Shown here: positions 49,559-63,652 of the stretch, piece by piece
How the letters are laid out: each line of letters begins with the position of its first letter
Numbering within the stretch: position 1 is the first letter of the stretch
From: Nitrospira sp. BO4
GTDB taxonomy: Bacteria > Nitrospirota > Nitrospiria > Nitrospirales > Nitrospiraceae
DNA: 64,000 bases
Direction of reading: 5' to 3'
Assembly (NCBI GenBank): GCA_030144965.1
Contig: JAMPUU010000006.1
Coordinates: 62,001 to 126,000, forward strand
Program-made: the position numbers and the translations under genes
The notes under the pieces: generated by a model
Databases searched by the model: none
The model's input: only the letters and a program-made list of their open reading frames with translations
Told to the model about the DNA's origin: nothing

Positions 49559-49948
49559 CTAGCTGCGGCCGCCCTTGCACCCTGAATCCGGCGACAGCTG
49601 TGCCCGCACGACATCCAGCAACATCTGCCGACTGAATGGCTTTTGCAGCGTCATATGGGCTCCCAGATACGCGGCGACTTGGAGATAGTTCCAGTCCCCG
49701 ATTCCGCCGGACATGGCGATAATCTTGGCAGTGAGGCAGGTACGGCGGAGTTGCCTGATCAGTTCCAAACCGTCCATCCCGGGCATCAGGAGATCGACGA
49801 GCACGAGATCGACAGGCTCTTCGCGTAAGAGGCGGAGCCCTTCGTGCCCATCGGCGGCTGTCAGGACAGAATAGCCCTCAATTTCCAAGGCCTGTTGAAC
49901 ATGTCGCCGCACTTCTGGTTCGTCTTCAATCACGAGCACTCTCTGCAT
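49559..49948 (-). CDS. Single-domain response regulator (duplication copy 1)
   Basis: 129 residues from the ATG at 49948, preceded by AAAAGGGG. A complete receiver domain: acidic pair in VLVIEDEPE, phosphoacceptor Asp in LVLVDLLMPGMDG, Thr/Ser in IIAMSGG and Lys in LQKPFS. No output domain, so it signals by protein contact like CheY or Spo0F. Together with the small secreted protein upstream (50123-50419) it forms a unit duplicated at 51934-52687. Confidence 0.92.
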   Translation of the reverse strand: MQRVLVIEDEPEVRRHVQQALEIEGYSVLTAADGHEGLRLLREEPVDLVLVDLLMPGMDGLELIRQLRRTCLTAKIIAMSGGIGDWNYLQVAAYLGAHMTLQKPFSRQMLLDVVRAQLSPDSGCKGGRS

Positions 49949-50122
49949 GATAGACCCCTTTTCACAGTCTCGAGGCCGACCGGTCAATCCCTCGGCTACA
50001 GCGGCAGATCAATCGCCGCTCGCGAATCCCTCAATCTCGCGCACACGGGAACACCGGACATGGCGGTAACATCTCTGGCCAAAGGCCCGATGGCCGATGC
50101 TCACATGGAGGCTGGCGTGAGA

Positions 50123-50419
50123 TTACGTCAGGGGCGGATGGAAGACCGAGGTGGCCAATACAGGCAGATGGGGAATTGGATGCCCGTCGACACGGAGACA
50201 CAGGGCACTGAAGGGACGGAGTTCAGGTACCGGAGGGAGTACCGAGAAATCTTCAGAAACCGATCCGGCAAGCATGTCCGAGGTCGTCAACAGACTGAGC
50301 AGAGTCACCGGGGCACCGAGCATCTGCGCGAGCACACAGACACAGAGTAAAAGGCTGAGGCACACCGTAACCTGTGGATGATCGATGAAGTCTGTGGCGC
50401 CGCTGATGTTCCGTAACAC
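50123..50419 (-). CDS. Small exported protein, family copy 1
   Basis: A hydrophobic segment (LSLLLCVCVLAQMLGAP) is followed by TLLSLLTTSDMLAG and a conserved tail PELRPFSAL, LRVDGHPIPHLPVLA and VFHPPLT. The start is uncertain; the GTG at 50419 is my guess, since longer frames lack a site. About 75% identical over the last 75 residues to the protein at 52406-52687. Hydrophobic N-terminus suggests export or anchoring; function unknown. Confidence 0.65.
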   Translation of the reverse strand: MLRNISGATDFIDHPQVTVCLSLLLCVCVLAQMLGAPVTLLSLLTTSDMLAGSVSEDFSVLPPVPELRPFSALCLRVDGHPIPHLPVLATSVFHPPLT

Positions 50420-50543
50420 GTCGTTCGTCTTTCTCGGTGGAGGGCTCTCGCCCAGGAGGTACCAGGAAGAGAAAATATCAGTAGAGAGCACCCTGATAGG
50501 CTGTCGACGATGCGACTTGCTTCGACGAGTTATCGTGTATCTT

Positions 50544-50720
50544 ATGAAGGATGGCAAGTCAAGAGGCGTCTCCCCTGCCGCGATCCTGGACGACTCAAAG
50601 TCGCTGGCGAATATGGGTAGCTCTACGCCTCAGCAAGCCGTCCTTGCCTGGCACGATTTTCCGCCAACCAAAAGCGGCAGACAGAACGGCCCCGCGTGCC
50701 CGACAGGATCATCAAAGTGA
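50544..50720 (+). CDS. Possible small protein, 58 residues
   Basis: Reads MKDGKSRGVSPAAILDDS, then PQQAVLAWHDFPPTKSG, and ends right before the strong hairpin at 50729-50759, which would make a natural terminator. There is no clear ribosome-binding site. Other frames in the area are also open, so confidence is low. Confidence 0.3.
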   Translation: MKDGKSRGVSPAAILDDSKSLANMGSSTPQQAVLAWHDFPPTKSGRQNGPACPTGSSK

Positions 50721-50728
50721 TTCGCGCG

Positions 50729-50759
50729 GCCGGCAACGGTTTGCTCTACCGTTGCCGGC
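50729..50759. terminator. Perfect 12-base hairpin
   Basis: Arms GCCGGCAACGGT and ACCGTTGCCGGC pair perfectly around a seven-base loop. No U-tract on the plus strand. It separates the possible 58-residue gene from the minus-strand secreted protein gene and could end either transcript. The rest of 50760-50993 shows no gene. Confidence 0.6.
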
Positions 50760-50993
50760 ACCCATCGTTACGAAATCGTGCGGGTGGCGCGATCATGTTT
50801 GGATGATCCGCTTGCACGACCCGACAAGAGGCAGCTATCTCAGTGACGGCTCACGATGCAATTCCTTCAGCATCGGCTCGCCTTCCCCTCGGCTCCCCCA
50901 CCAGGGATCGGGTCTCTGTGAATGGCCATTCACACTATCGAGTGACTCCGCATACAATCCATATGTTATGGGAACCTGAACAGACCGTGTGAG

Positions 50994-51323
50994 CTAGGGA
51001 AGCTGCACCACCGTAACCGTCCAGTGCGCATTGCTCGAGATTTTGAGAGAGTAGGTCCCGCCTTTCGCGTGATACGTCGCGCCGGCAGCATCGCCGGTCG
51101 AATTCCCCAGCGCCTCCAGCTGTTGTCCCTGAGCATCGAGAAGAAAGAGCGAGAAATCATTCGTGGCTGTCCACCGCACCTCCCAACCGTCTTTCACGGT
51201 GAACGGCCGCGTCGTCCGCGATCCGTTTGCAGTGAGTTCCTGGATGATTTGTTCCTCCGCGGCGAACACCAAGCCGGCGAGCAGCAGCGAACCACACATC
51301 ACAACGCTCATCAATCGATACAT
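50994..51323 (-). CDS. Small exported beta protein, family with 56168-56479 (copy 1)
   Basis: 109 residues from the ATG at 51323, five bases after AGGAGGG. Signal peptide MSVVMCGSLLLAGLVFA, then a compact beta domain: EEQIIQELTANGS, FTVKDGWEVRWTATND, FLLDAQGQQ and GGTYSLKISSNAHWTVTVVQ. The paralogue at 56168 shares the same layout. Likely periplasmic; the fold looks like a small beta-sandwich for ligand binding. Confidence 0.8.
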   Translation of the reverse strand: MYRLMSVVMCGSLLLAGLVFAAEEQIIQELTANGSRTTRPFTVKDGWEVRWTATNDFSLFLLDAQGQQLEALGNSTGDAAGATYHAKGGTYSLKISSNAHWTVTVVQLP

Positions 51324-51505
51324 GGTATCCCTCCTTTTGTTCGGCGCGGATCCAATCACAACATGTTACATCCGGGCACCGCGGGAGCACCAGCTGTCCC
51401 GCGACTGAACTTCTAGTGGGCACTTGGTCCGATAAGGTGATCTGTGGGCATACATACTTGTCAGTGTTGCAGTAGGAGTGCAGAGCATTTCGGCACGCGA
51501 CTTTG

Positions 51506-51937
51506 CTAGGGAACAGCCATCACGGGAATCGACGGATCAACCGCTAGCCAGATGTCGACATACTTCTCTGACAGCGTGAGAGCCAAATCTGACCGATACA
51601 GCGTGTGATCTAACTCCATCGAGATGACATGAAACATCGCGAGGTAGGCAGATTTGAGTGCAAGCGGCACATCGTGTGCGACGGCCTCCTCTCGACTTCG
51701 AAGGAGTCGCGCCCGATACTCATCGACGGCCTTGATGGCCACGAGCAGTTCCCTCTTGAGTTCAATCAGCTGTCCAGTGTCGCGTGAAGAACCCTTTCCC
51801 CTCGTCGCTCGAAAGTCTTGAACCCGTTGCTTATGGTCGGCGTAGTCCGCCACGAGGCTGAGCAGTGTGTCCGGTTCACCTGCCACCGCAAAAACAGGGG
51901 AAGTCAGAATCACGAGCAGTGCCAACAAGCATCTCAT
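51506..51937 (-). CDS. Exported helical protein, 143 residues
   Basis: A signal peptide (CLLALLVILTSPVFAVAG) precedes a helical body with DYADHKQRVQDFRATRGK and LIELKRELLVAIKAVDEYRARL, ending DIWLAVDPSIPVM. GAGGAG lies nine bases before the ATG. The start overlaps the in-frame end of the decayed response-regulator copy (ATGA), so it once was, or still is, translationally coupled to it. No known family. Confidence 0.75.
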   Translation of the reverse strand: MRCLLALLVILTSPVFAVAGEPDTLLSLVADYADHKQRVQDFRATRGKGSSRDTGQLIELKRELLVAIKAVDEYRARLLRSREEAVAHDVPLALKSAYLAMFHVISMELDHTLYRSDLALTLSEKYVDIWLAVDPSIPVMAVP

Positions 51938-52242
51938 TCGTATCGTTTCTCCTCAACGTGGTTGTCTCTCACACCGACAGGACTGGACGACGCCGGTTGC
52001 GCACGCACGACCTCCAAGAGTTCCTGCCGACTGAATGGTTTCTGGAGCGTCGTATGAACGCCCTGATACACCGCGAGATGCTCTCAGTCCCCGATACCTC
52101 CGGCCATGGCGATAATCTTCGCCCTCAGATGGGTGTGGTGGAGCATTCGAATCAGATCCAATCTGTCCATACCCGGGGTGCGGAGTTCAACCAGTACGAG
52201 ATTCACGGGTTCCTCACGAAAAAGACGGAGCCCTCGCTGCAT
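51934..52242 (-). pseudogene. Decayed response-regulator copy (duplication copy 2)
   Basis: Starts MQR like copy 1 and keeps GAGGTG as ribosome-binding site, but lacks about 35 codons that contained the acidic pair. It continues GLRLFREEPVNLVLVELRTPG, where the phosphoacceptor Asp is Glu, and IIAMAGGIGD, then a TGA where copy 1 has TGG. Beyond it the frame resumes with TLQKPFSRQELLEVVRAQ. An internal deletion plus a nonsense codon make it non-functional as a receiver. Confidence 0.85.
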
Positions 52243-52405
52243 AATGCACCTCACTTGATAATTTGAAGCCCCGACCGTTGCCCGAGTGACGGCCTGTTGA
52301 TCGCCGCTCACAAGCCCCTTCATCTCGACACTGAGCGCATCGAACATGGCGGGATCGTCACGGCCAGGAGCCCGGTCGCCGATACACGTCTTGTGCGGAG
52401 TGAGA

Positions 52406-52687
52406 TTAGGTCAAGGGCGGATGGAAGACGGACGCGGCCAACACCGGCAGATGGGGAATCGTATGTCCGTCGACACGGAGGTGTAGGGCGCTGAAGGGAC
52501 GGAGCTCAGGCACTTGGGGAAGCATCGAGGGATCTTCGGAACCTGATTCCGCGAGCACATCGGAGGTCGTCAACAGACTCAGGAGCGTCATCGGCATGCC
52601 GACCACCTGCGCCAGCACACAGACACAGAGAAAGAGTGCGATCCACCTTGAACTCGTTCTCTGACCAATCGACGTCAGGGTCTTCAC
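52406..52687 (-). CDS. Small exported protein, family copy 2
   Basis: Hydrophobic start (WIALFLCVCVLAQVVGMP), then TLLSLLTTSDVLAE and a tail nearly identical to copy 1: PELRPFSAL, LRVDGHTIPHLPVLA and VFHPPLT. The start (GTG at 52687) is uncertain. It precedes the response-regulator copy 2 by about 160 bases, the same order as in copy 1. The coding frame is intact, unlike its neighbour, suggesting selection on this product. Confidence 0.6.
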   Translation of the reverse strand: MKTLTSIGQRTSSRWIALFLCVCVLAQVVGMPMTLLSLLTTSDVLAESGSEDPSMLPQVPELRPFSALHLRVDGHTIPHLPVLAASVFHPPLT

Positions 52688-54983: not shown

Positions 54984-55343
54984 CTATTTTCGCCAATTCG
55001 GGAGGAAGAACACTCTGCGCGGGACACTCGTACCAAAGAAGACCAACGACTGAGCGAAAGCGAAAGTCAGTCTTTTCACCCTGTCCCCGTATGTTCCTAG
55101 AACCGAGCCGTATTCGGACCATGGAACCTGTGCAGGGGGCTCGAGTGAATCGACGATAGGTTTCGCTTCCTCCAGGGCTGCCGCGAGGGCCTCTTCGCGG
55201 GAAGGGAAGCCGCCGTCTGGGCACCCTTTGTGATACCCCCAACAGGTTTGTCGGAATTCAATAATGCGATACTCGCAATGCCAGGCCCCATCAGCTTGAC
55301 GTCTGGGAACCAACTCGATGCTGCGATGCTTATAGTCCGGCAT
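54984..55343 (-). CDS. Single-repeat member of a Trp-Cys small-domain family
   Basis: 119 residues. The first 70 residues match the repeat found twice in the protein at 57092-57574: a strand IELVPRR, then DGAWHCEYRIIEF, PDGGFPSREEALAAALEEAK and IVDS. The remaining 50 residues are poorly ordered and may be a degraded second repeat. No signal peptide. Function unknown. Confidence 0.65.
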   Translation of the reverse strand: MPDYKHRSIELVPRRQADGAWHCEYRIIEFRQTCWGYHKGCPDGGFPSREEALAAALEEAKPIVDSLEPPAQVPWSEYGSVLGTYGDRVKRLTFAFAQSLVFFGTSVPRRVFFLPNWRK

Positions 55344-55409: not shown

Positions 55410-55700
55410 TCAGTGCGTCTGTCTTGCACGGACACTGAGGCCGTCGGTCCCTGCTCGAATGATCTTTCCAGGACTCGCACGGAGCGTGGGGAGCACGGTA
55501 TGCTCCATATACTCCTTGAGGTTCTCCGGACGGAGATCGTTGACGAATTCACGGTCGAGTGCGAGTTCTGAAGTCTGCGCGCCATCGTGATAGACGAAGC
55601 GCTCAGTGTACGGGCCCGGCGTGACATCACGAAACCACCTTTCAAAGCACTGCTGTATGATTCCAATGTTTCCAGGCTCACTACCTCCAGGATTCGTCAT
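55410..55700 (-). CDS. Hypothetical protein, 96 residues
   Basis: ATG at 55700 follows AGGAGGGATT, a strong ribosome-binding site. The body reads IGIIQQCFERWFRDV, YTERFVYHDGAQTSEL and LKEYMEHTVLPTLRAS, a soluble mixed helix/strand protein. No family recognised. 66 bases separate it from the Trp-Cys family gene downstream, which may be cotranscribed. Confidence 0.65.
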   Translation of the reverse strand: MTNPGGSEPGNIGIIQQCFERWFRDVTPGPYTERFVYHDGAQTSELALDREFVNDLRPENLKEYMEHTVLPTLRASPGKIIRAGTDGLSVRARQTH

Positions 55701-56167: not shown

Positions 56168-56479
56168 TCATGGTTGCTGCACGACCGTCACGGTCCAGGC
56201 CCCCTCGCTGATAACCTTGAGCGAGTACGTCCCGCCCTGTTCTTGAGAAGCGCTCCCGCCTCCGCCGTGCTCTGCATAGGCAATCGCGGCAATACGATTG
56301 CCTTCGCGATCGAACGTTATGATAGAGAGTCCTTCGTCGCCCTTCCAACGCACCTCCCAGTGATCCTTGGCGGTAAAGAGGCCCGACATTTGGGTGCCCT
56401 TCGCGGATAACCGTAGCAGGATCTGCTCGTCCTCAGCGAACGCTGTACTCACGAGTATCAGAACACCGCACAACACCAC
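56168..56479 (-). CDS. Small exported beta protein, family copy 2 (start region damaged)
   Basis: 103 residues: signal-like CGVLILVSTAFA, then EDEQILLRLSAKG, FTAKDHWEVRWKGDE, a Gly/Ser insert and GGTYSLKVISEGAWTVTVVQ. Clear paralogue of 50994-51323. The only good ribosome-binding site (GAGGAG) serves an ATG at 56500 in another frame that begins MRRFLPAWCCAV, a normal signal-peptide start, and soon stops. A one-base indel in the signal sequence would join the two frames. Confidence 0.65.
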   Translation of the reverse strand: MVLCGVLILVSTAFAEDEQILLRLSAKGTQMSGLFTAKDHWEVRWKGDEGLSIITFDREGNRIAAIAYAEHGGGGSASQEQGGTYSLKVISEGAWTVTVVQQP

Positions 56480-57091: not shown

Positions 57092-57574
57092 TCAACTGAT
57101 GACACGTTTCGCCTTTTTCAAGGCAGCCGCGGTGGCCTCCGTGACTGTAGCGAAGGTGCCATCAGCCAATCCGCGCCTTTTGCCGGTTGGGAGTTTGCCA
57201 GGTTCAAAAAGTATATACTCGCATTGCCAGCTCCCATTCGCTAGTTGGACCGGCAGCAATTTGATCGTGCGGCCATCAGAATGGTAGTCGCGATACTGAA
57301 ATCTCTGAGCCGTAGTTCCTTCTGTCAGGACATTAAAATTGAACAGCGGTATACCTGAATCAATAATGCACTTCGCGGCTTTCAATGCCGCTATTTCTGC
57401 GTCTATAGAAGTAGAAAAGTCTGCCTCGACATGCCCCTCTTTCAAATTGGACTTTGGCTTTAGGGATTCCACAACAATTGAATACCGGCATCCCCATTGC
57501 CCATCCGCCAGTCGATCCGGAGTCAACTTGATCATACACCCGGCATAATAAAAGTCGCTCAGAGGAGTGAACAT
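57092..57574 (-). CDS. Two-repeat member of the Trp-Cys small-domain family
   Basis: 160 residues in two copies of a unit: first YYAGCMIKLTPDRLADGQWGC to IDAEIAALKAAKCIIDSG, second YHSDGRTIKLLPVQLANGSW to TFATVTEATAAALKKAKRVI. Each copy has a conserved G-W-x-C-x-Y turn and a closing helix. The protein at 54984 has one such unit. No signal peptide; cytoplasmic, unknown function. Confidence 0.75.
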   Translation of the reverse strand: MFTPLSDFYYAGCMIKLTPDRLADGQWGCRYSIVVESLKPKSNLKEGHVEADFSTSIDAEIAALKAAKCIIDSGIPLFNFNVLTEGTTAQRFQYRDYHSDGRTIKLLPVQLANGSWQCEYILFEPGKLPTGKRRGLADGTFATVTEATAAALKKAKRVIS

Positions 57575-59181: not shown

Positions 59182-59544
59182 CTAGTGCTGCAGTTCATAC
59201 TGCACTGCGTAGAGCAACGCCTCGAGATCCAGCGGTTTTGGAAAGGTATGCCGAGCCCCGAGGAGCTTTGCCTTCTGGAGTTCTTCTGCGGAACGCCCGC
59301 TCATGGCGATGACCTTCACATCCAGGAACGCCCGGGTCAACTCCAGGATGACCTCCAGGCCGTTCATCTCTGGCATCTCCAGATCCGTGATGACCAAATC
59401 CACGGGCTGCGCCCGAAACCGTTCGAGTCCCTGCCGGCCATTGGCGGCCTCACAAACCTGATAGCCGGCATCTTCAAGGTTTAGCGCCAGCAGGGTGCGA
59501 AGTGACGCATGATCCTCAATGATTAGGATGGTGACTGGTCTCAT
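59182..59544 (-). CDS. Single-domain response regulator
   Basis: 120 residues, receiver only: acidic pair in ILIIEDHAS, phosphoacceptor in LVITDLEMPEMNG, IAMSGRS and conserved Lys in FPKPLD. AAGGGAC precedes the ATG. Not closely similar to the duplicated regulator at 49559. It lies upstream of the Slp gene on the same strand, with about 180 bases between. Confidence 0.92.
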   Translation of the reverse strand: MRPVTILIIEDHASLRTLLALNLEDAGYQVCEAANGRQGLERFRAQPVDLVITDLEMPEMNGLEVILELTRAFLDVKVIAMSGRSAEELQKAKLLGARHTFPKPLDLEALLYAVQYELQH

Positions 59545-60831: not shown

Positions 60832-63378
60832 TCAGTTGACAGGATGGTTCTCCGTCGTGCGGTCCCCGCCCCGCACCTTGCTGATCGTGTCGCAGACGAC
60901 ATTGAAGGCCGTGCCCTTCGATAAGTAAGCGCAGGCGCCGGCCTCGTACATCGACTGCTCAAGCTTCGGATCCTCGTGCATCGATAGTCCAATCACGGCG
61001 ATGTTTGGGAACTGGTGCTTGATGCGACGGGTGGCCTCCACGCCGTTGAGCTTCGGCATATTGATGTCCATGAGGATAACGTCAGGATGGACTGAGGCGG
61101 CGAGCTCTACCGCAATTTCTCCGTCCATCGCTTCGCCGGCGATTTCGAATCCCGGTTCGCTCTCAAGCATGCTGCGCAGACCTTGCCGCATGATCTGATG
61201 ATCATCTACTAAGAGAATCCGAAGCTGACTGGGACGGTCATCTCCGTTGCCGGGCTGGGCTGCAGTGGAGGTTTGCTTCCCTTGATACCCGGCCAGCGCC
61301 GTGACCGCACGGGTCTGCAACGGGAACAGCATCGTCACTCGGGACCCGCGCCCAGGGACGGACCAGACCCGAATGCGTCCGCCGATCGCGTGCAGTTGTT
61401 CTTGTAGATTGAACAGACCGAACCCACCCTCCCGTGTGGGTGCCTGCGAGCCCTCCATTTGAAAACCAGCGCCGCGGTCCTTGACTTGAATGGCAAGATG
61501 GTCACCAATTCGGCGCAGCCGCACCGTCGCTTCGGTGACCTGCGCATGCTTGAGCACATTGAAGAGCAGCTCATGGAGCGACTGATATGCAGTACGCAAT
61601 ACCTCGGCATCCAACAGCTTTTGCTTGCCATCATCTATCACTCGGACGACCAATCCATGGCGCTGTAGCTTCTCCGTAACCCACTGGACCGCTGCAGCTA
61701 GATCCCCGTCACCCCCGAGCGTCGGTGGTCGCAAATCGCTCATCAATTGTCGAATGACTGCCAACGCTTCCTTGATCAGCTCCGTAATTGGCGCAATGCC
61801 GGCGGCGCACGACGGCGTCGTGGCGCGCGACAGAGCTTCCAGTTTCATCCGGCACAGGGCGAGCGTCTGCGCAAGATTGTCGTGGAGCTCGGTCGCCACG
61901 CGTTGGCGGACCGTCTCATCTGCTTTACGTAATTGATTCGCGAGCGACTGCAGACGCCCCTGGTACAGCATCAACTCCTTGGTCCGCTGCTTACGCTCGG
62001 TAATATCGACAAACGTGAACACGAAGTCAGTGGTATGGCTGGGTTCCGTGAGGGGAAAGGCCGAACATTCCACCTCCAGCACAGTCCCATCCTTACGCCG
62101 GAACACCTGCTCCTCGAGTCGCGTGAAATTCCCATGTGAAAGAGCCCGTAGCAGCACACACTGATCGCCACAGAGTACGTCGCCTCCACGGTGCACACGA
62201 TCATGGAAGGGATGCCCTAGCAATTCGTAGGGCATATAGCCCAGCATCTTGGCCCCTGACTGGTTCATAAAGGTGCAGCGCCCGTTGTGATCCACTCCAA
62301 AAATGCCCTGATCCGTAGTCTGCAACAACAGATGATACTGTGCCTCGGCCGCCGTGGCGCGCATTCGTTCCGCCTGGGCGAGCTTCCATTCCTTGAGCAA
62401 TCGTCCTTGCATCCAAATGAGGAGATAGAAGATCGGCAGGACAATGACGACGCCGACTGCTCCGACCTTGAAATGAAAACTTCGAACGGGCTGTACTAGC
62501 GACGCCGTGGGTATGCTCACCAATACCGTCCACCGAAATGCATCGGGCTGACCCCATCCCCTGGTGTGACTGTAACCTGTGATGATGGGAATGTGCTTCC
62601 GCAGGTTCATTTCCTCGATATAACGCCCCTTACCTTGGCGCGCCAATTCCAGCGATCTCATTTTCAGGGTGGAAAAGTTGGATCGGCCCTTATGAGCCAA
62701 GTCACTGTCGACGTAGGCCACTCCATCCTCAGCGATGATCTGGTACTCGATATCGGTCAACATGGAACTTTTGTTGGGCAAACTGGGCAGCGTTTCCACT
62801 GCAATCTCTTCCAAGACGGAGAGCGTGATACGGCTCGTTACCACGCCGGCAAAGCTTCCGCGCGAATCGTAGATGGCTCGTGAGATCGCGATCGCATCAG
62901 GTGCACCTTCCTCGGCCAGGAAGGCATCAACTCCTCCCAGTAAGGTGGCATCTGGCCTTGTCAAGGCCAGTGCGCGGATCTCCTGAAACCAGGGGGTCGC
63001 ACTGACATCCATCCCTCGCGGAGATTCATTCGAAGTTGAGGCCACCAAGCGTCCCTCCCCGTCCGCCACCGCAACCCAATGATATGTTTTACGGGTGTCC
63101 CGAACCGTGTGAAGATAATGCTGCACGAACGGCGGATCTTCTTTTATACGATTCGACAAAACAACCGCCATGACGCGCAGATCATCATAGCGTTCAAAAA
63201 TCAGCCGATCGAATTTCGAGGCGATTTCCGCCGCCCCTAAACTGAGAGCTTCCCCGGCTGTTTGTATCAGCGACTGTTGCATATACTGCCACGCCGCCAG
63301 CCAGGTCACCACGACCACCGCCGTGATCGCCGCAATCTGTACGGGTAATTGGTAGAAACTGGGCTTGGAGGACGTCAT
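60832..63378 (-). CDS. Cache-PAS sensor histidine kinase with C-terminal receiver
   Basis: 848 residues from the ATG at 63378 (longer frame to 63495 lacks support). TM at about 15-32, Cache-like periplasmic domain at about 40-300 (YHWVAVADGEGRLVAS), second TM near 304-322, PAS about 345-460, and HisKA_3 with His499 in TELHDNLAQTLALCRM, as in NarX-type kinases. HATPase follows (KDRGAGFQ, GGFGLFNLQEQ), then a receiver with Asp771 in VILMDINMPKLNG. The receiver is NarL-like but has no DNA-binding helix-turn-helix. Hybrid kinase that probably passes its phosphate to a separate regulator. Confidence 0.9.
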   Translation of the reverse strand: MTSSKPSFYQLPVQIAAITAVVVVTWLAAWQYMQQSLIQTAGEALSLGAAEIASKFDRLIFERYDDLRVMAVVLSNRIKEDPPFVQHYLHTVRDTRKTYHWVAVADGEGRLVASTSNESPRGMDVSATPWFQEIRALALTRPDATLLGGVDAFLAEEGAPDAIAISRAIYDSRGSFAGVVTSRITLSVLEEIAVETLPSLPNKSSMLTDIEYQIIAEDGVAYVDSDLAHKGRSNFSTLKMRSLELARQGKGRYIEEMNLRKHIPIITGYSHTRGWGQPDAFRWTVLVSIPTASLVQPVRSFHFKVGAVGVVIVLPIFYLLIWMQGRLLKEWKLAQAERMRATAAEAQYHLLLQTTDQGIFGVDHNGRCTFMNQSGAKMLGYMPYELLGHPFHDRVHRGGDVLCGDQCVLLRALSHGNFTRLEEQVFRRKDGTVLEVECSAFPLTEPSHTTDFVFTFVDITERKQRTKELMLYQGRLQSLANQLRKADETVRQRVATELHDNLAQTLALCRMKLEALSRATTPSCAAGIAPITELIKEALAVIRQLMSDLRPPTLGGDGDLAAAVQWVTEKLQRHGLVVRVIDDGKQKLLDAEVLRTAYQSLHELLFNVLKHAQVTEATVRLRRIGDHLAIQVKDRGAGFQMEGSQAPTREGGFGLFNLQEQLHAIGGRIRVWSVPGRGSRVTMLFPLQTRAVTALAGYQGKQTSTAAQPGNGDDRPSQLRILLVDDHQIMRQGLRSMLESEPGFEIAGEAMDGEIAVELAASVHPDVILMDINMPKLNGVEATRRIKHQFPNIAVIGLSMHEDPKLEQSMYEAGACAYLSKGTAFNVVCDTISKVRGGDRTTENHPVN

Positions 63379-63652
63379 CGGTAAAGCAGGGGAAGCACTG
63401 TACTGGCTTGTGCCGATATGGGAGCTAGGTCGATAAGAACCGGTCTGGAGAGCACGAGGTTGCCCCCTGATGTGGACCGGCCTGCATATACACATACACC
63501 AAGATGGACGAGGACGCTACCCCCCAGCAAGCCCCCGCGCAACCAGCGGCAGCATTCACAGTGCCAACATCGTCAGATCAGCTGACCTATCCAGTCATTG
63601 CGAGCAGGGCAAGTGGGGTGGATGAAAATCTTACAGTCACGACGTGGATGCT

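Follow-up and report, generated by a model that had tools for sequence, protein, structure and literature searches.

The window analysed here, 64,000 nt of Nitrospira sp. BO4 (assembly GCA_030144965.1, contig JAMPUU010000006.1, positions 62,001–126,000 of the forward strand), carries on its minus strand two copies of a gene pair: a small-protein gene, for which we use the working name FAM, followed by a gene for a receiver-only response regulator (RR). FAM1 (50123..50419), an open frame for a small single-span member of the family, encodes 98 aa from a GTG start and ends in SVFHPPLT; intergenic DNA that is in part common to the second copy (49949..50122) separates it from RR1 (49559..49948), an intact regulator of 129 aa. 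The paralogue FAM2 (52406..52687) encodes 93 aa, again from a GTG start (both starts were picked by eye), and combines a FAM1-like core with an N-terminus like that of a further copy, C12b. It is followed by intergenic DNA that can be aligned with its counterpart in copy 1 (52243..52405) and by a broken RR (51982..52242). All of these features lie on the minus strand, as do two further genes for exported-looking proteins. The first, between the copies (50994..51359; cluster c42), has a paralogue at 56168–56479, and its Pfam search gave just a sub-threshold, chance-like match. The second, directly downstream of the broken RR (51506..51937; 143 aa), had no Pfam match at E 0.1 and no NCBIfam match at E 1. 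An Rfam search of the window at gathering scores gave no match. Between 48800 and 53800 we found no intrinsic terminators, and three promoter-like sites against 2.1 expected.

Comparison of the window with itself revealed direct repeats at a nearly constant offset of 2283–2399 nt: 50114–50353 with 52397–52636 (240 nt, 80%), 49682–49841 with 52075–52234 (160 nt, 72%), 49589–49677 with 51988–52076 (89 nt, 74%) and, in the intergenic DNA, 50012–50039 with 52300–52327 (28 nt, 79%). Pairwise alignment spans FAM, the intergenic DNA and RR, with identical order and strand in both copies, and the DNA downstream of FAM1 aligns to copy 2 with a local score of 47 (shuffle maximum 22). The repeats and alignments confirm the FAM-RR duplication, which is old. 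The first-pass annotation had described the pairs at 49559–50419 and 51934–52687 as alike in order, orientation and sequence, including intergenic DNA, with the small protein intact in both and the regulator decayed in copy 2 only. The repeats and the alignment agree with this description: both FAM frames are open, RR1 has a full receiver domain, and the second RR carries deletions and a TGA.

FAM is widespread. Our own genome (G000) has 11 copies, at least one copy is present in 55 of the 79 genus genomes searched, and the family also occurs in a few other genera of the same taxonomic family. Stops were absent from all 76 matches of the first profile search; a wider profile showed stops in six of its listed matches, including C12b, where the match extends past the open frame. 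We found no homologue of known function in Pfam, NCBIfam or PDB sequences. When 57 members were searched one by one, only single members gave matches (best E 0.0049 in NCBIfam and 0.0057 in Pfam), and there was no match to PDB sequences up to E 10. As judged from these searches, FAM is a conserved small-protein family without a name or a Pfam or NCBIfam model. It was not found described in the parts available to us of the Nitrospira literature on duplication, small membrane proteins and lineage-specific families, which does not prove its absence from print; a literature look-up for CutF also found nothing. Across 60 FAM upstream regions, k-mers were near the shuffle level (highest 8-mer count 6, shuffle maximum 5), giving no shared promoter motif. 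Spread by plasmids was rejected, since FAM1 had one chance-level match (E 8) in 72,556 plasmid records. Ammonia-oxidation genes, sought as a strain marker, gave no match, but they gave none in the control genomes either and so carry no information here.

RR1 matches PF00072 (Response_reg) over profile positions 1–110 of 111 (E 1.7e-27), the sole family reported; its receiver domain is complete and it has no output domain, as in receiver-only response regulators. Aligned to RR1, the second RR has an in-frame 99-nt deletion near the N-terminus and a 6-nt deletion (lengths counted by eye on the alignment), as well as TGA where RR1 has TGG. Its phospho-Asp is replaced by Glu and its Ser by Ala, and Lys is retained. 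It therefore lacks the full set of intact frame, acidic pair, phospho-Asp, Ser/Thr and Lys. A same-species genome, G091, matches ours at 99.34% identity in one 10,006-column match and also carries this RR, again with a single, identical TGA; of the 66 differences that separate the two genomes, only 2 lie inside the broken RR. The lesion is therefore not an error of one assembly, and sequencing error was rejected as its cause. Outside the species, among 77 genomes with up to 54 candidates scored per genome, none of the matches listed exceeded 55% identity to RR1. The single closer case is a broken remnant behind a FAM in genome G028, 60% identical over 52 residues. We infer that RR is a lineage-specific companion, outside the core function of the FAM family.

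The likeness between FAM1 and FAM2 stops inside the gene. Just before the conserved CVCV codons 26 of 75 nt are identical, against 177 of 222 nt after them. The N-terminus of FAM2 and the DNA upstream match C12b rather than FAM1: the upstream DNA scores 42 against C12b (shuffle maximum 27) but 18 against FAM1 (shuffle mean 17.5), and a protein tree places FAM2 with C12b (support 99/91). With FAM1 and C12b as parents, the breakpoint statistic was reached in 1 of 2000 permutations, and with the G028 copy and C12b in none of 2000; with C12a as second parent the test was weaker (20/2000) and placed the break elsewhere. These tests use short stretches and ungapped anchoring. Because the 5′ end of FAM2 fits C12b and not FAM1, copy 2 looks mosaic. 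By the simplest route, recombination inside the conserved FAM core would have given copy 2 its C12b-type 5′ end. The distances among FAM1, FAM2 and the copy in G028 are roughly equal and give no order of duplication, speciation and exchange. A second case of this kind involves copies C15 and C20. The 703 nt downstream of them, with a gene present in both, match at 80%, yet synonymous divergence is higher in the two FAM cores than in that gene (a difference of zero or less in 34 of 2000 bootstraps). When G028 was taken as a parent of C20, the parallel breakpoint test did not reach significance (225/2000).

FAM1 and FAM2 differ 11, 6 and 30 times at codon positions 1, 2 and 3, with dN/dS of 0.156 (bootstrap 0.07–0.29); this bias and the low dN/dS in the minus frame led us to reject FAM as an antisense artefact. 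For RR1 and the broken RR the value is 0.18 (0.00–0.33, replicates with saturated dS being entered as 0), and the two ranges overlap. These are noisy NG86 estimates from 76–84 codons at dS 0.7–1.2, to be read against an expectation near 0.5 or more had one copy been neutral throughout. Since the dN/dS of the broken RR is as low as that of FAM, the estimates support purifying selection on both copy-2 genes for most of the time since duplication, and the second RR was probably lost late. It lost catalytic residues and broke, with FAM2 staying intact.

In the model of the first-pass annotation, by contrast, the segment was simply duplicated in tandem, selection kept FAM, and the second RR, redundant and dispensable from the outset, decayed neutrally. 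The order, orientation and intergenic DNA common to both copies fit this model, as does an intact FAM beside a broken RR, a state that recurs in the G028 remnant. Two observations speak against it: dN/dS of the broken RR is low, a sign that constraint lasted long after the duplication, and at its 5′ end copy 2 is like a different paralogue. The model is thus contradicted in part, and we think it unlikely as it stands. Its duplication survives, in mosaic form. Its view of the exported protein as the selected part finds support over the long term, FAM being present in 55 of 79 genus genomes and RR1 having no listed match above 55% outside the species, but not for the time since this duplication, when RR appears as constrained as FAM.

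The anatomy of FAM was read from 61 of the 76 profile matches. Members have one transmembrane helix with C-x-C, a variable linker of near-fixed length and F-[HR]-P-P near the C-terminus. The F, P and P are present in 61/61; the motif reads FHPP in 45 of 60 and FRPP in 15, and ends two residues before the stop in 48 of 60. From an invariant Q through the motif the span is 63–66 aa in 60/61. A structure model of low overall confidence (mean pLDDT 60.6, pTM 0.31) has one confident helix (11–29) and a tail mostly below pLDDT 60, and the KD19 maximum is 2.39 and 2.26 in the two window copies. The helix flanks have mean net charges of +1.6 on the N side and −3.4 on the C side, the latter negative in 61/61. 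A cleavage-site-like tract (VLA|Q) in some members is not conserved; the residue before the invariant Q is A in 18, T in 11, V in 9, S in 7, F in 6, L in 5, M in 3 and G in 2 (n = 61), and so is not consistently small. Although the protein had been called exported, the helix, the flank charges and the lack of a conserved cleavage site suggest that it is probably membrane-anchored rather than secreted, with its tail outside the cytoplasm.

FAM would then be a small single-span inner-membrane protein with its N-terminus inside, whose flexible tail of fixed length may dock on a partner through the terminal F-[HR]-P-P. CydX, AcrZ and KdpF are examples of small single-span accessory proteins of membrane transporters or oxidases; CydX is the subject of PMC4325964. 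Several FAM loci adjoin bicarbonate/sulfate, Na+/H+ or other cation transport genes, which may point to an association, although orthologous loci do not count as independent cases. Because of these neighbours, the likeliest job would be that of an accessory or modulatory subunit in ion, pH or envelope-stress homeostasis. The two window copies adjoin RR and uncharacterised genes, not transporters. The overall account, in which an old mosaic duplication was followed by late loss of RR and FAM is a membrane accessory protein, is one we regard as evenly balanced between right and wrong.

Alternatively, FAM might be a translation-arrest leader peptide (an upstream ORF) of the CruR or RAPP/RQH type. 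Its N-terminal helix or C-x-C would then act as a sensor of membrane insertion or of a metal, and stalling of the ribosome at F-[HR]-P-P would control the downstream gene (RR, a SulP-carbonic anhydrase gene or others). Judged by upstream-ORF criteria as in PMC10987492, FAM has the N-terminal segment (helix 11–29), the conserved C-terminus (F, P and P in 61/61) and a near-fixed spacer of more than 30 aa (63–66 aa span in 60/61) leading to a di-proline motif. In 41/61 loci a co-oriented gene begins no more than 300 nt downstream. According to PMC12992588, small secretory and membrane proteins encoded upstream of diverse genes, including PepSY and copper genes, show an enrichment of RAPP-like arrest motifs. 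However, the FAM motif is not R/H/Q-[AG]-P-P or its kin. The next gene downstream is co-oriented for 45/59 FAM against 306/444 other genes in the same stretches (Fisher p 0.29), the upstream gene is co-oriented as often (46/59), and 14/59 have no co-oriented gene next downstream; a site upstream of a co-oriented regulated gene is therefore no family rule, though single members could qualify. There is no C-over-G excess downstream (34 FAM against 152 other stretches, p 0.20), and downstream RNA structure is inconsistent (z −2.7 to +1.7 in 14 stretches folded). FAM2 and the G028 FAM are intact although the RR behind each is broken. We therefore consider arrest distinctly improbable. FAM is no likelier than other genes to precede a co-oriented gene, which favours a role at the protein level. 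A conserved RNA element was likewise rejected, with no Rfam match in the window and no consistent fold in the 14 stretches.

The copies could also be weakly constrained passengers of genomic islands, borne by mobile DNA and homogenised by recombination, as might be suggested by the location of some copies in gene-poor stretches with island-like neighbours (read from sequence only), such as an ORF like a recombinase close to C26 and ORFs of phage type close to C20; we find this very doubtful given dN/dS below 0.43 in 25 of 36 paralogue pairs (those with finite dS, from 9 of the 11 own-genome copies; the other 11 pairs were saturated, and the set excludes the two copies of C26), F, P and P kept in 61/61 analysed members, and several loci whose gene neighbours are conserved across species. 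A bolder form of the arrest idea, a long shot in our view, would make FAM a Nitrospira-centred set of force- or metal-sensing nascent chains, with a C-x-C helix, a ruler-like spacer and an F-[HR]-P-P stall site, whose core recombination re-pairs the sensor with new upstream regions and downstream genes. If true, eleven copies would wire one sensing module to many genes, the window RR among them.

Nitrospira are major nitrite-oxidising bacteria. For studies of physiology particular to this genus FAM offers a concrete target: it is conserved, matches no Pfam or NCBIfam model, lies near ion-transporter genes at several loci and has expanded to eleven copies in one species. A specific biochemical test is open to it through the fixed spacer and conserved C-terminal motif, and the mosaic copies provide an example of small genes swapping 5′ ends and downstream partners by recombination.

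Among known systems, RR1 resembles the receiver-only (CheY-like) regulators of PF00072, being a complete receiver without an output domain, whereas copy 2 has lost part of its N-terminal region and carries Glu, Ala and an internal stop. FAM is like the CruR and RAPP/RQH arrest peptides in being small, with an N-terminal helix, a fixed spacer and a di-proline near the C-terminus, but has neither a RAPP-like motif nor a preference for sites upstream of co-oriented genes. Paired Cys occur in both FAM and CruR, although in FAM they form C-x-C inside the helix, not C-x-x-C; FAM also lacks a DUF2946 match, PF11162 being absent from the eight families matched by any of 57 members at E 0.1. With the CydX, AcrZ and KdpF kind, FAM shares a length under about 100 aa and one transmembrane helix, and we count as a likeness that such proteins are often tied functionally to a membrane complex. 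Unlike them it matches no family model, and it is set apart by its constant-length tail, its conserved C-terminal motif and its many paralogues per genome.

In the window, two pairs of genes share order and orientation. In each pair, a member of an unnamed family of small single-span membrane proteins (FAM) is followed on the minus strand by a response regulator (RR): FAM1 (50123-50419) by RR1, an intact receiver-only regulator (49559-49948), and FAM2 (52406-52687) by a regulator remnant (51982-52242, the second RR). The FAM-RR order recurs at a distance of 2.3-2.4 kb, with two further small minus-strand genes (50994-51359 and 51506-51937) lying between the copies. A repeat search of the window detected ungapped repeats of 240, 160 and 89 nt, with 72-80% identity and matching offsets, and the alignment of the two copies also takes in the intergenic DNA, bearing out the segmental duplication proposed in the first-pass annotation. 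We conclude that the FAM-RR duplication is real and old, and that copy 2 looks mosaic; our evolutionary statements about it are well to moderately supported.

Alignment of the second RR with RR1 showed that 99 nt are gone in frame close to the N-terminus, that a further 6 nt are missing beyond this gap, and that TGA replaces a Trp codon. Glu occupies the phospho-Asp position and Ala replaces the Ser of RR1's IIAMSGG, both positions that we take to have functional roles. The same regulator, with one TGA, is present in a same-species genome that is 99.34% identical over ~10 kb. By the Nei-Gojobori method, the FAM pair has a dS of 0.74 and a dN of 0.116 (ratio 0.156; bootstrap 95% range 0.07-0.29), and the RR pair, over 84 codons, a dS of 1.21 and a dN of 0.219 (ratio 0.18; range 0.00-0.33, with saturated-dS replicates scored as 0). 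A regulator neutral since the duplication would be expected to give a pairwise dN/dS of ~0.5 or more; given the ratio of 0.18, constraint probably acted on the second RR through most of the time since duplication, with breakage coming late. This runs counter to the initial suggestion that uneven decay of the two genes singles out FAM as the selected part. Elsewhere in the window, 59182-59544 encodes a further receiver-only response regulator that is 45% identical to RR1 and has no adjoining FAM gene, and a large ORF at 60832-63495 looks, from its sequence, like a sensor kinase-receiver fusion.

Contig C117 of G028, a genome of another species, holds a third FAM, 80% identical to FAM1, with an RR remnant behind it (L119 4285-4440); this remnant is 60% identical to RR1 over 52 residues, lacks the first ~40 residues and is frame-shifted. 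Among the matches listed for 77 genus genomes outside the species, with at most 54 candidates scored per genome, none exceeded 55% identity to RR1. FAM1, FAM2 and the G028 FAM are roughly equidistant (dS 0.67-0.82). C12a, a further FAM copy of the window's genome (4.7 Mb in 30 contigs), has 78 nt of FAM1-downstream DNA in common at 74% identity, a stretch that takes in the start region of the RR; a tblastn search with RR1 turned up no RR remnant at that copy, its sole hit being a different receiver (35%) farther downstream.

FAM1 and FAM2 are identical at 26/75 nt ahead of the conserved CVCV codons, compared with 177/222 beyond them, and FAM2 matches C12b, another paralogue in the same genome, at 45 of the 75. 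In gapped local alignments of the 260 nt upstream, where fast divergence adds noise, FAM1-FAM2 scored at shuffle level, FAM2-C12b scored 42 (shuffle maximum 27) and FAM1-G028 scored 68. A protein tree groups FAM2 with C12b at 99/91, with few columns for their rows. With FAM1 and C12b taken as the parents of FAM2, 1/2000 permutations reached the breakpoint statistic; the count was 0/2000 with G028 and C12b, and 20/2000, with the break at a different place, when C12a was the second parent. A second segmental duplication (L023 of contig C15, 5235-6226; L026 of contig C20, 2521-3506) retains 80% identity across 703 nt downstream of FAM, including one gene whose match to WYL is sub-threshold (E 0.00029; 21.2 bits, cut-off 21.8). 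Synonymous divergence is higher in these FAM cores (0.58) than in the common downstream gene (0.39), the difference being at or below zero in 34/2000 bootstraps. The C20 breakpoint test gave 7/2000 with FAM1 and C15 as parents; with G028 and C15 it was not significant (225/2000). These comparisons are most simply explained by recombination inside FAM.

FAM has 11 members in this genome, likewise 11 in the same-species genome, and at least one in 55 of 79 genus genomes, among which the highest count outside the species is 7. In a first sample of 59 genomes, the 29 with a match all came from the same genus (35 genomes sampled), and the 24 genomes from other genera had no match. A wider profile gave matches (E 0.01) in 41 of the 295 genomes sampled from the phylum; of these, 33 are from the same genus, 7 from other genera in the same family, and one, marginal (E 0.0017) and containing a stop, from elsewhere. 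No relatives were found in Pfam, NCBIfam or PDB.

We described FAM anatomy from 61 genes in fetched stretches, out of 76 first-sample profile matches; 57 were aligned (alignment A2), omitting three from L103 and one from L116. F-x-P-P is present in all 61, and the span from an invariant helix Q through this motif is 63-66 aa in 60 and 81 in one, despite a poorly conserved linker. The motif is FHPP in 45/60 and FRPP in 15/60, followed by exactly two residues in 48/60. An AlphaFold2 model (mean pLDDT 60.6) has a confident helix at 11-29, a weaker one at 35-46 and a low-confidence tail. The N flank is positive in 48 members and the C flank negative in 61/61, which agrees with an N-in, tail-out orientation.

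One FAM locus is kept across about ten genomes, and a gene for a SulP-carbonic anhydrase fusion (cluster c2) is among the genes that these have in common there. Genes near other loci encode, depending on the locus, Na+/H+ exchangers, a CitMHS-family transporter, NhaA, a cation P-type ATPase or a pump labelled RND-like from sequence reading rather than a family scan; these are raw occurrences, with no background rate for comparison. No such transporter genes adjoin the two window copies. The small exported-looking proteins at 50994-51359 and 56168-56479 (minus strand) are paralogues (cluster c42), with a shorter relative close to FAM in G028:C117. Small proteins at 54984-55343, 55410-55700 and 57092-57574, the last assigned by eye, belong to another two groups of paralogues (clusters c40 and c39) that turn up again near FAM copies on contigs C26, C12 and C15; neither of the two that were scanned, both from L027, matched Pfam.

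Any function for FAM would be inferred. A minority view, that FAM is an arrest peptide, would fit the co-oriented gene start found at most 300 nt downstream in 41/61 cases. However, by gene calls from a simple purpose-written script, a co-oriented gene follows 45/59 FAM genes versus 306/444 other genes of the same stretches (p 0.29), and co-orientation is as common upstream (46/59). Downstream of FAM, a C-over-G excess was absent and no consistent RNA structure was found in 14 stretches. Compared with known arrest peptides (PMC12992588), the FAM motif differs from the RAPP-like di-proline arrest motif.
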